Shown here: positions 38,052 through 44,712 of the stretch, piece after piece
How positions within the stretch are numbered: the first letter of the stretch is position 1
Layout: the number at the start of each line of letters is the position of its first letter
From: Halobaculum sp. MBLA0143
Lineage (GTDB): Archaea; Halobacteriota; Halobacteria; Halobacteriales; Haloferacaceae
Assembly (NCBI RefSeq): GCF_041361465.1
Contig: NZ_JBGKAC010000001.1
Coordinates: 2,356,001 to 2,420,000, forward strand
Direction: 5' to 3'
DNA length: 64,000 nucleotides
Program-made: the position numbers and the translations under genes
Notes under the pieces: model-generated
The model's input: only the letters and a program-made list of their open reading frames with translations
What the model was told of the DNA's origin: nothing
The model's database searches: none

Positions 38052-39299
38052 TCACTCGGAGGCGGACGCGCCGACGATCACCGGCCGGTCGGCGAAGACG
38101 ACGACCGTAGCGACGGCGAGGAACGACGCCCCGACTCCGGCCATCGCCACTCGCGGCGACACCACGTCGGCGGCGGCGCCACTCGCGAGCATCACTGGAA
38201 TTCGCAGCAACGCCCCGAGGAACGATTCCGCGCTGTTGATCGTCGCCCGTGTATCCGACGTCATTCGGTCGTTGAGGTACTGTCGGACCCCCGGTTGTGC
38301 GAGCTTCGGCAGTGACATCATCGCCACGACGGCCGGGACAGTCGTCACCGGAGCGAGAACCGGGAGAATCATACACGCCGCGCCGCCGCCGTACGCGGCG
38401 GCGACAGTTCGGCCCAGTCCGAGCCGCGACTGGACGCGCTCCGCGAAGTCCAGCATCACTCCGGAGCCAAGTGTGAACACGGCGTACGTGCCGGCCACGA
38501 GCATCGCACTCGGGACAACCACACCCGACAGTGAGTAGCCCGCCTCCGGGATGGCGTCGAACGTCGTCGGCTGGATGTACTTGCTCGCAGTGTAGATGGC
38601 ACCGCCCGAGAGAACGGACAACAACAGGACCGCCCGAATCGTGGGGTTTGTGAGAAACGTCCGGGTCGCCGTGAGCGCTGCTCGCGGGTCGACGGCGTCG
38701 CCGTCGTCGTCCGTCGCCTCGTTCGTCGGGAGACTCAACACGACCGGCGCGGCGATCAGCGATGTCGCCGCTCCGATGGCGACGGCGTACACCGGCTCGA
38801 TTAGGTACAGCAGTCCGCCGCCGATCATCGTCGCCGTCGTGACGTACTTGACGTACGACCCGATTTGTCCCATCACGGCGGCAAACTGCTCTTGATCGTC
38901 GTGCTCTGCGAGTTTGTCGTAGAACCACGCCGTCCCGGCACCGGACCTGAGTGCCGCCCCAATACCGAAGGCGAGGTACGTTAACACGATGTCGACGGTG
39001 CCGTCGGAGACGACGTAACCGACTGTCCCGAGCCCCAGCCCGACCTGGCTCAAGAACATCGTCCGGCGGCGCCCGAACACGTCGGCAAAGTACCCCGACG
39101 GGAGTTCCAACAGGATCGTAGTGACTGCCATCACGCTCGTCCCGACAGCGATGTCGGTGTAGGTGACGGTGTTGGACACCATGAACACGACGTAGAACGG
39201 GGTGGCAAACCCGGCGTCCGCGAACGCACGGAACACCCCGTACTTCGCCACCGCGCGGCGCGACACGGGGTGGAGCGACCCGAGGCCGCTCTCACTCAT
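38052..39299 (-). CDS. MFS transporter next to the lanthipeptide genes
   Basis: This 415-residue protein has twelve predicted membrane helices. The loop 2-3 motif of the major facilitator superfamily is present as GYFADVFGRRRTMFLSQ (about 73-90), and the middle loop (about 190-215) is acidic. It resembles multidrug or metabolite exporters. The ATG at 39299 overlaps the end of the peptidase-like gene by 8 bases, so the two form an operon divergent to the lanthipeptide synthetase genes. Export of the modified peptide or self-protection is a reasonable inference; typical class II systems use an ABC transporter with a peptidase domain (LanT), which is not seen here. Confidence 0.85.
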   Translation of the reverse strand: MSESGLGSLHPVSRRAVAKYGVFRAFADAGFATPFYVVFMVSNTVTYTDIAVGTSVMAVTTILLELPSGYFADVFGRRRTMFLSQVGLGLGTVGYVVSDGTVDIVLTYLAFGIGAALRSGAGTAWFYDKLAEHDDQEQFAAVMGQIGSYVKYVTTATMIGGGLLYLIEPVYAVAIGAATSLIAAPVVLSLPTNEATDDDGDAVDPRAALTATRTFLTNPTIRAVLLLSVLSGGAIYTASKYIQPTTFDAIPEAGYSLSGVVVPSAMLVAGTYAVFTLGSGVMLDFAERVQSRLGLGRTVAAAYGGGAACMILPVLAPVTTVPAVVAMMSLPKLAQPGVRQYLNDRMTSDTRATINSAESFLGALLRIPVMLASGAAADVVSPRVAMAGVGASFLAVATVVVFADRPVIVGASASE

Positions 39300-41278
39300 C
39301 CGTTCCCTCCGTCCGACGGGTAGTCAGCCACTGTTCAGTGCGTTCGAGCCTGTCGAGAACCGTCTCTGGAGGCGTGTAGACGGAGCCGCCGAGCTCTGGG
39401 TAAGTGTACAGCGTCACATCGGCTCCCTGACGCGCGAGGTGGGTGTACAGCCGCCGTGACTGTTCGGCCGGGTGAGCGTCGTCCGCACCGCCAGCGAACA
39501 GGAGCAGCGGCGCGTCGATCCGGTCGGCGTCCCACAGCGGCGACTTTCGCCGTGACGGCACTGGCTCCACCCAAGGCGCGATCACTGGGCGCCGCCAGTC
39601 GTCATCTCCGGAGACGGCGCTCGTGTAGTCGTAGGTCCCGTGTTTGGCGATAGCGCCGGCGAGGAGATCCGTCTCGGCCAGTAGCCCGACGACGCAGTCG
39701 GCGCCGTAGAACATCCCACAGCCGAACACGTTCTCGGGGTCCAGTGGCGGTGCGTCGAGCACTTGCCCCAACGCCGGCGGTGAGGTCGGCGACGGCGGCG
39801 TCGAGATACTTCTCTCGACCGGCGGCGCAGAAGTCGGCGCCGTACGAGCGACTACCCCGGAAGTTCAGCTTCAGGACGGCGTACCCTCGGTCGAGCAGAA
39901 ACTGGTGCCGGAACCGGAAGCGGGGAGCGTCGACGGAGTCCATCTCCCGGTGAACGTCGACCACAGAGGGGACGCTGGCTGCCGGGGCATCGTCGAAGCC
40001 TGGTGGGACGCAGTAGAATCCCTCGACTGTGGTGCCGTCGTCCGTCTCCGTCCGGAGCTGTCTGGTGTCGATCTCACCCTCCGGGTGGATCGTCGCGTTC
40101 AGCGTGTGGCGAGTGGTCCGCGACGCGACGGCCTGGCGCTGTGAGTCGAGGTGAAGTCGGACGACACGACTCGCCGTCGGGTGGATCGTCGCCGTCTCGA
40201 TCCGGCCAGCCGCTCGGTCGACATCGAACGGGCGGTGTCTCCCGGACCACTTGACCGACTCTGGCCACGCCGGCTCGTACAGCGGGGAGCAGTCGCCGTC
40301 GATTTCGAGCGCGTACAACACGCCGCTTCCCGCATCGAGGACGCATCCGACGACTGTGTCGGAGTCCAGCCAGTCGACGTAGTGGATACAACGGTCAAGA
40401 CCCGCCGACAGTGACCGCACCTGGTCGTCTTTGGAACTGACGACACACGCCTCGTGTGGGGTCGCCAACTCGCGTTGGTCGTACTGCACGAATGCAATCC
40501 GGTCGCCGTCCGGCGACCACTCCGGGTCGGTACAGGCGTGCTCCGAGTCGGTGTGATTGCGTCGGTTGGAGCCGTCTGGTTCGACGCTGAACACGTCGAA
40601 CCCAGCCGGACTACCCCCCTGGTTGGCGACGAACGCGATCCGCCCGTTCGGTCCCCACGCCGGCTTCATCCGGTGGAGCCACTGGCGGCCGTATGTCGAA
40701 CGACTCCACGTCCCCTCGACGTGCTGGTGGTCACCCATCTCGTTTACCACGACCAACGACCGCTCGAACGACGCTGTCTCCTCGTCGTCCGGACGAGAGA
40801 CTCGCGGGCGCCGGGCAGGTGGAAGGCGGTCGTCGTTGCTTCTCCCCTCGTCGACCGGCCGTCTGACGGCGAGAACGGCCCGGCTCCCATCTGGACTCCA
40901 GTCGAATCCCTCGACTCGGTTCGGGCACGTCGACAGCTGGCGCGCGTCGCCGCCGGCGAGGTCGTAGAGCCACAGGTCCGTCGTCTCCGTCGCCTGGTCG
41001 GCCGTCTCCGGGTGACCGGTGACAGCCGGGTCTGGCGGACGACAGGAGCAGATGCCCAACTGCTGCCGCCCCGGTCGCCACCGTGGGTGACGGCTCTGCC
41101 CGATACGGGTCAGCCGACGCCACTCCCCGTCAGAGTCGATAATGAAAATATCGTGGCTCTCTCCTCCTGGGACCGGCGACCGGACGTACACTGCCGTCGT
41201 CGACGCAACCGACGACGAGCGAACGCTGTACGGCAACTGTTTGTCGTAGTAGTCGGTACTCTCGACGGTCGTGTTCAC
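39292..41278 (-). pseudogene. S9-type (prolyl oligopeptidase-like) peptidase homologue, frameshifted, catalytic residues lost
   Basis: From GTG 41278 the frame encodes an N-terminal seven-bladed propeller (about 1-390, repeats such as DPEWSPDGDRIAFVQYD) and the start of an alpha/beta-hydrolase domain (GYAVLKLNFRGSRSYGADF). A single extra base near 39775-39780 (GACCTCACCGCCGGCGTTGG) shifts the frame; removing one G restores LTAALGQVLDAPPLDPENV and gives about 661 residues to the stop at 39292. In the restored domain the nucleophile elbow reads GCGMFYGAD where the family has GxSxGG, and the His region reads ELGGSVY where EGH is expected; only the acid (GGADDAHP) remains. So even without the frameshift it is unlikely to be a peptidase. 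TTTAAA at 41302-41307 is its TATA box. Confidence 0.72.
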
Positions 41279-41402: not shown

Positions 41403-41531
41403 ATGTCCGAACTCGACCGAAGCGCCGTCGAGGCACAGTACAATTACGACTACGTCGACCCGGACGAGGGGACGACACTGCCGGCTGACGACACGACATC
41501 CGGTGGGTGTAGCGGACCGAATTCCTTCTGA
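41403..41531 (+). CDS. Putative class II lanthipeptide precursor (LanA)
   Basis: This 42-residue peptide is encoded 26 bases before the dehydratase gene. It has an acidic leader of about 28-35 residues (MSELDRSAVEAQYNYDYVD...) and a C-terminal region rich in modifiable residues, TTSGGCSGPNSF (positions 31-42), with Thr31, Thr32, Ser33, Ser37, Ser41 and a single Cys36. A Gly-Gly pair (34-35) sits directly before the Cys; in class II leaders a double-glycine often marks the cleavage site. One cysteine allows one lanthionine ring. The gene has its own TATA box. The role is inferred from size, composition and position; it matches no family I can name. Confidence 0.7.
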   Translation: MSELDRSAVEAQYNYDYVDPDEGTTLPADDTTSGGCSGPNSF

Positions 41532-41557: not shown

Positions 41558-43519
41558 ATGGAAGTGTTCACGCGGAGCCAGCGACGACGGATTCTCGCAG
41601 GGAGTCGACTTCTCCACGACGCAGTCCCGGTGACTGAGGCGTCCGAGGCGGTCGAGCCGCCGGACAGTGACGGTGCGACAGCCGGCGAGCGGTTCGCGGC
41701 GCTGTACCGAGAGAGCGAGTTCGGCGACCTGACACGGCGGTCGCGGGTCGCCGGTCTCGACCCGGAGACGGTCGACGCGCGCGCCACCGCCGAGTCAGCA
41801 GCAGACCCGCCTGACGAGCGGCTGACTGAGCCGCCGGAGTGGTTCACTCATCTCTGCTGGCTGGCCGAGACCCTGGTGTCAGTCGACCCACGCGAGACTA
41901 TCCCGGACGGCTGGGGAGAGATCCCGTTCGCCAACTTTCTCGTCCCAGTCGTTGAGCTCGCACAGGCGGAACTCGCGTCTTGGCTCCCCACGGATCGGGT
42001 CGCCGACGGGGCCTTGGAGCCGGCGGCACGCTGGCTGTGTCACCGTCTGTCCGAGACTGTCGCACAGCCGTTGCACGTCGAGTTCCGGCTGTTCCGGGAC
42101 GGCGAGCAGTCGGCGGACGACTCGACGACGGCATACGAGGCGTTCGTCGCGTCGCTCCACGACGGAGGGTTCACCGACTTCTGTGCTCGGTACCCGTTCG
42201 CCGCACGCCGGCTCGCTGTCACCGCCGACCGGTGGCGAACGGCGACGGCGACGCTGATCGAACGGCTCCGCGGGGACTGGTCGGCGTTGCGCGACCGGTT
42301 CGACGCGACCTTCGACACGCTGGAGGCCGCCATCCCGGGACGTGGGGATGTCCACGACGGGGGACAGACGGTCACGGAACTCCGGTTCGACAACGGACAT
42401 CTCTACTACAAGCCGCGTCCGGTCGGTCCCGACCGCCTGTACGCGGAGATCGTCGACCTGCTCGAGGGTGACTGCCCCGTCGAACTCACAGCGCCGATCG
42501 TACTACCGAGGGACGGCTACGGCTGGGTCGCAGCCGTCAGGACGGCCGCGCTGGACGGTCGCGACCCGGCCACGTACTACGAGCGTGTCGGAGCCGTCCT
42601 CTGTGTCTACTACGTATTCAACGGGTCTGATCTCCACTTCGAGAACCTGCTCGCCGCCGGGGATGTCCCGATCCCAGTGGACACCGAGACGCTGCTCACG
42701 CGGTCACGGGTTCCCCGGCTGCTCCCGAACGGACGGGCGGACCAGCGTGTGGTCAAGTCCGCAGTCGAGGAGTCCGTGTTCCGGACCACACTGCTCCCGT
42801 TCGAGACGGACATCGAGAGTCGGGTTCCAGAGACCGCCGGTGACGACATCTCCGGGTTAACTGCCGTCGGAGAGATGGAGAGTCGTCAGCTGACCCCCGA
42901 CTGGCGCCACGTCAACACCGACCGAATGTCGTTCGAACTGACCCCAGGGCGCTATCGCTCCACCGGGAGCTACCCACACGAGAACGGCGAACCGGTACGG
43001 CCGGAAGGGTACGCAGATGCTGTCGCCGACGGATTCCGGGCAGCGTACGACACCCTGTCGCGGCTCGATCCGGATCGGGTCACGCAGGTGCTATCGTCGC
43101 CACTAGACGCCGTCGAGTCCCGATATCTGTTCCGCAACACGAGCGGCTACTTGGCCGCGCTGCGCCAGCTCCGGACCCCCCAGTGTGGACGCAGCGGTGT
43201 CGAGGCTGGGTTGAAGCTCGAACGGCTCGTCCCAGAGCTACAGATTTTCGACGAGGAGACACAGCAGTCTATCGAGCCGATTCTCGACGCCGAGCGAACC
43301 GCGCTCCGGGACGGTGACGTCCCGCGGTTCGGAATCGACGGCCGGGATCTCACCTTCCGCGGAGAGACGCTCCTGGCGGGGTTCTTCGAACGATCACACG
43401 AGTGCATCGTCCGCGATAGGCTCGAGTCGTTGTCGCCGGCTGATCGCCGGCAGCAGTCGGGCTACATCACTGCGTCGTTGGCCGCACGGCGCGGACCGTC
43501 CGACGGTGGGGAGGAATGA
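41558..43519 (+). CDS. Class II lanthipeptide dehydratase, the N-terminal half of a split LanM
   Basis: This 653-residue protein corresponds to the dehydratase (DUF4135) part of LanM, which phosphorylates Ser/Thr of the precursor and eliminates phosphate to give Dha/Dhb. The lipid-kinase-like active site is complete: Lys285 in YYKPR, the D-x-H-x-x-N motif at Asp358-His360-Asn363 (GSDLHFENLLAAGD), Asp375 and Glu377 in PVDTETLL. Elimination-type residues are seen at Arg409-Thr410 (VFRTTLLP) and Arg526 (YLFRNTSGYL). The cyclase domain that normally follows in the same chain is encoded separately by the next gene, overlapping by 4 bases (ATGA). It acts in the cytosol on the peptide from 41403. 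Confidence 0.92.
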   Translation: MEVFTRSQRRRILAGSRLLHDAVPVTEASEAVEPPDSDGATAGERFAALYRESEFGDLTRRSRVAGLDPETVDARATAESAADPPDERLTEPPEWFTHLCWLAETLVSVDPRETIPDGWGEIPFANFLVPVVELAQAELASWLPTDRVADGALEPAARWLCHRLSETVAQPLHVEFRLFRDGEQSADDSTTAYEAFVASLHDGGFTDFCARYPFAARRLAVTADRWRTATATLIERLRGDWSALRDRFDATFDTLEAAIPGRGDVHDGGQTVTELRFDNGHLYYKPRPVGPDRLYAEIVDLLEGDCPVELTAPIVLPRDGYGWVAAVRTAALDGRDPATYYERVGAVLCVYYVFNGSDLHFENLLAAGDVPIPVDTETLLTRSRVPRLLPNGRADQRVVKSAVEESVFRTTLLPFETDIESRVPETAGDDISGLTAVGEMESRQLTPDWRHVNTDRMSFELTPGRYRSTGSYPHENGEPVRPEGYADAVADGFRAAYDTLSRLDPDRVTQVLSSPLDAVESRYLFRNTSGYLAALRQLRTPQCGRSGVEAGLKLERLVPELQIFDEETQQSIEPILDAERTALRDGDVPRFGIDGRDLTFRGETLLAGFFERSHECIVRDRLESLSPADRRQQSGYITASLAARRGPSDGGEE

Positions 43520-44712
43520 CGAGCGTGTCGCGACGAAGACGGGCGCTCGCGTGGATCGACGACCGACTCCGAGCCGCCGCCGTCAACCACGGGACGGACG
43601 CCGTCGGGTGGGTCTCGCTCGACACCAGGCACGAGGGATCGCTGACGGTCGCCGGGGGCCGGTCGTTGTACGGCGGGCAACTCGGAATCGCACTGTACCT
43701 CGCGGTCCGTGCGCGTGTCGGTGAGATGGAGAGAGACGACGGCAATCCGGGAGCACTCGCGCGGCGTGCGGTCTCGCCGTGGCTCTCGTGTGACGTGAGC
43801 GAGATCGAAACAAGACACACCGGCGGGACGAACGGCATCGGTGCGCTTGTATACGGGTTCACGCGCCTCGCCGAGGAGACAGGCGACGAGCGGTACGCCG
43901 ACCGGGCGAGCGAAATCATCGATGTCACCACTGAGCGGTTTATACGTGCCGACGATCGCCACGGTGTGGTGTACGGCAACGCCGGGCTGATCCTCGCGCT
44001 GACAGCACACTACACCCGACAAGAGGATGATCGTGCCGTGGCGCTGGCTCGGGTCGCTGGCGACCACCTTCTGGAGACGGCAACAGAACGAGCCGACGGG
44101 CTGGCGTGGGAGACGGACGGGGTCGCGGCGGCGGGGTTCGCCCACGGGAGCGCTGGCGTCGGGTACGCCCTCGCCCGGCTGGCCGCCGCGACCGGCGACC
44201 GGAGGTACGCCGAGGCGGCCGCAGACGCACTGCTGTTTGAGGCGAGCCGGTTCGACGACGAGACAGTACAGTGGGCTTCCGGTCCGAGCCACAGTCGTCA
44301 CGGCGTCGGAGAGGGATGGTGTTGGGGGCGACCGGGCCACGCGCTCGCCCGGGTCGCGGCCGCGGACCTCGTCGAGACGCTGCCGAACCGGGTTGTCGAC
44401 CGCGGCCGGCGAGGCGTCGCCGCCGTCGGCACGACCGACTACGACAACGACACACTGTGTCACGGAACGTTCGGGGACGTTGCCGTGTTGACGGCCGCGA
44501 GCCACGCCCGGACGGCGCCGCTCGACCGGGCGCGACGACTCACATCGACCGCACTGGCCCAGTGGCGCCAGCGTGGTCGGTTCCGTCTCGCCGAGACCGC
44601 CCACGTTCCCGGCGGTCGCCCCTCGTTGTTCCGTGGGCTTGCCGGAATTGGCCACACGTTGTGTCGTCTTCAGGCTCCCGACACCGTCCCGTCTGTTCTC
44701 CTCCTAGAGTGA
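43516..44712 (+). CDS. LanC-like lanthionine cyclase, the C-terminal half of a split LanM
   Basis: This 398-residue alpha/alpha-barrel protein corresponds to the cyclase domain of LanM; it joins Cys thiols to Dha/Dhb to form lanthionine rings. The zinc ligands are intact: Cys269 in WCWG and Cys315-His316 in LCHG. The GFAHGSAGVGYAL segment (His210) is the conserved catalytic-base region, and LYGGQLGIALYLA (51-63) is the typical opening of the domain. The ATG lies in the stop codon of the dehydratase gene, so equal amounts of both are made. No sign of decay. It is convergent with the HPP-Usp gene, 17 bases away. Confidence 0.92.
   Translation: MTSVSRRRRALAWIDDRLRAAAVNHGTDAVGWVSLDTRHEGSLTVAGGRSLYGGQLGIALYLAVRARVGEMERDDGNPGALARRAVSPWLSCDVSEIETRHTGGTNGIGALVYGFTRLAEETGDERYADRASEIIDVTTERFIRADDRHGVVYGNAGLILALTAHYTRQEDDRAVALARVAGDHLLETATERADGLAWETDGVAAAGFAHGSAGVGYALARLAAATGDRRYAEAAADALLFEASRFDDETVQWASGPSHSRHGVGEGWCWGRPGHALARVAAADLVETLPNRVVDRGRRGVAAVGTTDYDNDTLCHGTFGDVAVLTAASHARTAPLDRARRLTSTALAQWRQRGRFRLAETAHVPGGRPSLFRGLAGIGHTLCRLQAPDTVPSVLLLE

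Follow-up and report, generated by a model that had tools for sequence, protein, structure and literature searches.

The question raised by this locus is whether a frame of only 42 codons, lying immediately ahead of genes for lanthipeptide modification, encodes a precursor peptide, and what that precursor would become. The window, by which we mean the whole 64-kb stretch of DNA analysed (G000:C1:2356001-2420000), lies on the larger of the two contigs of a haloarchaeal genome. The frame opens with ATG and occupies 41403-41531 on the forward strand; its product is MSELDRSAVEAQYNYDYVDPDEGTTLPADDTTSGGCSGPNSF. In agreement with the sequence-only reading, the translation has a single cysteine, Cys36, immediately preceded by Gly34-Gly35, and the residue numbering given there is correct. 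Candidate residues for dehydration are Thr31, Thr32, Ser33, Ser37 and Ser41, together with Thr24 and Thr25, and since there is only one cysteine, no more than one ring can form. From the open reading frame, its position and a homolog described below, we assign the frame as a lanthipeptide precursor gene (lanA) with a leader of approximately residues 1-35 and a predicted core CSGPNSF (residues 36-42).

Several properties of the DNA indicate that the frame is a gene. Only 26 bases separate it from a dehydratase gene (41558-43519), and both modification enzymes, the dehydratase and a LanC protein, are encoded directly downstream, as had been proposed. When the 279-nt gap before the dehydratase was subjected to Markov shuffling, an acidic open reading frame of at least 35 residues with a cysteine within its last ten residues arose in 0.12% of trials. 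The G+C content rises from 38% upstream to 60% within the frame, and its GC3 value is 0.74, compared with 0.80 for the dehydratase and 0.78 for the cyclase. A precursor profile built from nine sequences without the window peptide ranked the 42-mer first of 636 window open reading frames (E=0.27), and with a profile of 18 sequences it was second of 636 (E=0.16); these ranks are weak evidence alone and are consistent with the position of the frame. Ranking the window frames by profile revealed no better-placed candidate in the 64 kb. No family for the 42-mer was found in Pfam or NCBIfam, and no near-identical DNA among plasmid records.

The dehydratase (41558-43519, forward strand, 653 residues; DUF4135, PF13575 E=2.1e-84) corresponds to the N-terminal half of a class II synthetase and covers positions 2-523 of the 932 in the LanM model TIGR03897. 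The LanC-like cyclase (43516-44712, forward strand, 398 residues; PF05147 E=1.2e-38) covers positions 556-932 of the same model, and its start overlaps the dehydratase stop in the sequence ATGA. Thus both halves of LanM are present as two proteins, and the system is a split variant rather than a typical LanM system. It has a DUF4135 dehydratase with catalytic residues, a LanC-like cyclase with a Cys-Cys-His zinc motif and an adjacent precursor with a leader and a Cys/Ser/Thr core, all of which are expected of class II; the bifunctional single protein is replaced by two overlapping frames. Alignment with CylM picks out D264, H266, K285, D358, H360, N363, D375, E377, R522 and T528 of the dehydratase, the matching CylM positions being those that we take to form the CylM active site. 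All ten positions are invariant in five split dehydratases. The cyclase retains the motifs WCWG, LCHG and FAHG in alignments that included LicM2. With their catalytic positions kept, both enzymes look active.

Profile searches of haloarchaeal families identified nine loci, spanning four families, with a separate dehydratase and an adjacent LanC: the window, L054, L055 and L056 (all three in genome G161), L057 (on the second contig of the genome that contains the window), L094 (G265), L137 (G443), L138 (G435) and L139 (G478). A tree built from 66 dehydratase domains places all nine together as a single group (SH-aLRT 97), with the window, L054 and L055 on one side of its division and the remaining six on the other. 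When six bacterial fused LanMs were added as an outgroup, the two sub-branches had supports of 97 and 99 and both branched basally among the haloarchaeal sequences; the best outgroup-rooted tree joined the nine as one group with a support of only 53. Judged from these trees, a single fission is likely to lie behind the split lineage. We also considered whether the split had arisen through misassembly or a frameshift; this is disfavoured because the arrangement recurs at nine loci in four families and each inspected cyclase start lies beside or overlaps the dehydratase stop.

Other LanM-type loci were encountered in the course of these searches. The short LanM-like frames L076/L095 and L089/L096 fall elsewhere in the tree and have no LanC match alongside. 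In L095/L076 (G288:C3:77625-79505) the LanM ends after the dehydratase domain, no LanC match was found nearby, and a 44-residue precursor-like frame (MSELDMTSVKEQIEAKYSR...) overlaps the start of the LanM frame; similar coordinates are found in the Actinarchaeum halophilum plasmid NZ_CP071308.1. L096 (G368:C11, 6298-8304 and 12169-13968) combines a stand-alone dehydratase, a DUF6895 gene, an ABC transporter and an intact S9 peptidase, but has neither a LanC match nor an evident precursor. The genome that contains the window has seven LanM-type loci (L001-L007, at C1:2397558, C2:222820, C1:2582342, C2:271606, C1:986245, C2:571155 and C2:564294, respectively), two of which are split, and in L004 five related precursor frames follow one another.

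A search over 170 genomes of the family with the 42-mer returned G161:C285:12411-12497 (E=0.03), which lies shortly upstream of the best relative of the dehydratase (G161:C285:12798-14435). This is locus L054, in a member of the same genus, and its peptide, MSVADSSAQTRTAVEAQFENGYLDRDDVMTLGSDNSGSTCNCMVRS, occupies the equivalent position ahead of the dehydratase. The local alignment of the two peptides scores 62, a value reached in none of 5000 shuffles. An equivalent peptide upstream of an orthologous synthetase, the absence of which had been named as a test against the sequence-only reading, is therefore present. The L054 peptide contains SGSTCNC and has two cysteines and no Gly-Gly, so the nearest relative does not share the single cysteine. 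A scan of contigs for named relatives yielded only the metagenome-assembled genome CAKZQY01, which carries the same locus as G161. A comparison of the DNA ahead of the precursor genes in the window and in L054 gave no convincing shared promoter element. The 42-mer also aligns to frames that adjoin haloarchaeal LanMs of fused or truncated form (L076, 0 of 5000 shuffles; L066a, 4 of 5000), and precursors were found upstream of six further split loci besides the window and L054. Among those of the other split sub-branch, L057 (275 of 5000 shuffles), L138a (730) and L137b (4274) gave no significant alignment. The L138 pair has two single-cysteine precursors, ending in WCSITA and WCTITATKE; no convincing precursor adjoins L055. 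On the basis of reading frame, position and homology, 41403-41531 almost certainly encodes a lanthipeptide precursor.

Building on the established gene, its homolog, the intact enzyme motifs and the gene order, we infer the ring position, cleavage site, export and biological role. The leader, through the region SAVEAQYNYDY, would be bound by the stand-alone dehydratase, which would phosphorylate at least one Ser or Thr in the C-terminal segment and then eliminate the phosphate. The separate LanC, probably translationally coupled, would add Cys36 to the dehydro residue, most likely that derived from Ser41 and alternatively from Ser37, to give one lanthionine. The leader would be cut close to Cys36 by a protease with no evident active gene in the cluster, and an MFS protein would export a product of about CSGPNSF. 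By analogy, we predict that the product is CSGPNSF or a slightly longer form with a single lanthionine between Cys36 and Ser41 (or Ser37).

The Cys36-Ser41 ring is favoured because of its likeness to sallan A2 and to the single-cysteine precursors of L138. A minimal one-ring core has a precedent in sallan A2, likewise made by a haloarchaeal class II route (SalA of Halorussus salinus): the mature peptide, CTRYSF, has six residues, begins with Cys and ends with Ser-Phe, as does the predicted CSGPNSF, and contains one Cys1-Ser5 ring (PMC12144867). The Cys7-Thr9 ring of ciblan A1 is a further Cys-first ring from haloarchaea (PMC12144867). The window sequence is compatible with a sallan-type product, in which a mature peptide of about 6-7 residues would carry a single Cys-to-Ser ring. 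The published core is contained in a frame of L118 (G441) ending in ...CTRYSFDYASKN, and sallan is therefore excised from the middle of its precursor. In contrast to the window, where the precursor has one cysteine and no tail and the enzymes are split, this precursor has two cysteines and a C-terminal tail (CTRYSFDYASKN), and its LanM is a fused protein of 1041 residues. The archalans, medlans and larlans, haloarchaeal class II lanthipeptides made by a fused LanM (PMC10105419, PMC12144867), likewise combine dehydratase and cyclase domains with short acidic precursors, whereas in the window the two domains are separate proteins and only one cysteine is present. The window leader resembles the published haloarchaeal motif K-x-(Y/F)(D/E)xx(F/Y) (PMC10105419, PMC12144867), but E stands in place of K, and N in place of D/E.

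It is possible, though in our judgement less likely, that the ring runs in the reverse direction, with Thr31, Thr32 or Ser33 joined to Cys36 (TTS-GG-C), cleavage upstream of Thr31 and SGPNSF left as a tail. The segment TTSGGC has the order usual in bacterial lanthipeptides, with Ser/Thr before Cys, the L054 homolog likewise has Ser/Thr directly before Cys (GSTCNC), and ciblan A1 contains a Ser2-Cys6 ring beside its Cys-first Cys7-Thr9 ring (PMC12144867). Against this, the single-cysteine L138a precursor (NWCSITA) offers Ser or Thr within reach only after its Cys, and sallan is itself a one-ring peptide of the Cys-first form.

The idea that the leader is removed after Gly35, as at a double-glycine site, gained no support. 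No match to the C39 peptidase family PF03412 was found in the genome, although the identical search was positive in 8 of 14 control genomes; the Gly-Gly is replaced in the nearest homolog, which has SGSTCNC; and the adjacent transporter is an MFS protein. On these grounds Gly34-Gly35 is unlikely to be a double-glycine site of the classical kind, and we rejected the classical route, cleavage by a C39 peptidase/ABC exporter (LanT). Work on other haloarchaea also points to leader proteases encoded outside the clusters (PMC12144867).

Divergent from the precursor lies a gene for an S9 (prolyl oligopeptidase-like) homolog (39292-41278, reverse strand; PF00326/PF07676, with tblastn similarity to the L054 homolog). 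It was first considered as the leader protease because S9 enzymes can remove lanthipeptide leaders, as in the case of FlaP (PMC10885120); FlaP and other class III/IV leader proteases of this kind are encoded beside their clusters. Unlike FlaP, the S9 homologs of the window, L054 and L055 lack an intact Ser-Asp-His triad, as an active enzyme would have: in alignments that included PDB alignments, the catalytic Ser is replaced by F, G and G, respectively, and the His by G, Y and G. The S9 protein of L096, used as a control, keeps both residues (GRSYGG and GHS). Judged by these residues, the S9 homologs of the three window-type split loci are conserved pseudo-peptidases. With the triad broken in each of them, the window protein is not an obvious leader protease, and this assignment is now disfavoured.

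The neighbouring gene (38052-39299, reverse strand; PF07690 E=3.2e-16) encodes the MFS transporter, a candidate for export or self-protection. A relative 43% identical to it lies between the S9 homolog and the precursor in L054, where the order on one strand is S9 homolog, MFS transporter, precursor, dehydratase and cyclase. In the window the S9 and MFS genes are both divergent, L055 has a divergent S9 gene and an ABC exporter, and most loci of the other split sub-branch carry ABC transporters and a DUF6895 gene in place of S9 and MFS. The DUF6895 gene was located at L056 9553-10869, L057 6203-7516 and L094 2330-3715, and also in L137, L138 and L096.

The state of the S9 gene bears on whether the cluster is real but decaying, with a precursor that has ceased to be processed into an exported product. 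The gene is read in two overlapping frames (39602-41278 and 39292-39771), the site concerned being at about 39737-39774, near 39.75 kb, and the Ser and His of the triad are missing. The double frame could reflect a true frameshift or else an error in the sequence, which a TTGGGG run close by makes possible. The precursor, dehydratase, cyclase and MFS genes are intact frames with conserved motifs. Moreover, the S9 copies of L054 (7907-10063, forward strand) and L055 (5257-7200, forward strand) are unbroken and yet lack the triad as well, so its loss characterises the subtype and does not point to recent decay. We consider a decaying cluster unlikely. Finally, short open reading frames are common in G+C-rich DNA and precursors can lie elsewhere, as the split locus L055 with no evident adjacent precursor indicates, but given the positional homolog in L054, the low chance of such a frame and the want of a better-placed window candidate, it is highly improbable that the 42-codon frame goes untranslated and that another site in the genome encodes the true precursor.

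Taken as a whole, 41403-41531 very probably encodes a precursor from which the split enzyme pair would make a very small haloarchaeal lanthipeptide of class II type. In the open-access papers, to which our search extended, we found no description of a split or separately encoded LanM, and a survey of archaea attributes to most clusters a typical LanM that includes a LanC-like domain (PMC10105419). The excised dehydratase domains of CylM, HalM2 and NukM, cited in PMC10676384, show that a class II dehydratase domain can function alone; these are laboratory constructs, whereas the separation in the window is natural. What is new, provisionally, is the two-protein synthetase with its dead S9 companion; the peptide joins an already known kind, and its published relatives both act against archaea and affect motility (PMC12144867). 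We tentatively envisage an old haloarchaeal class II lineage with separate, coupled dehydratase and cyclase, in one branch of which a catalytically dead S9 partner might bind the peptide without cutting it; in the window that machinery would make a one-ring product near the lower size limit of lanthipeptides.

One-ring lanthipeptides are the simplest objects with which to test how a synthetase chooses the site of dehydration and the direction of the ring. A natural split class II pair would allow dehydration and cyclisation to be studied separately without cutting an enzyme. Furthermore, the conservation of an S9 homolog without its catalytic residues suggests a non-proteolytic role, in peptide maturation or in self-protection.
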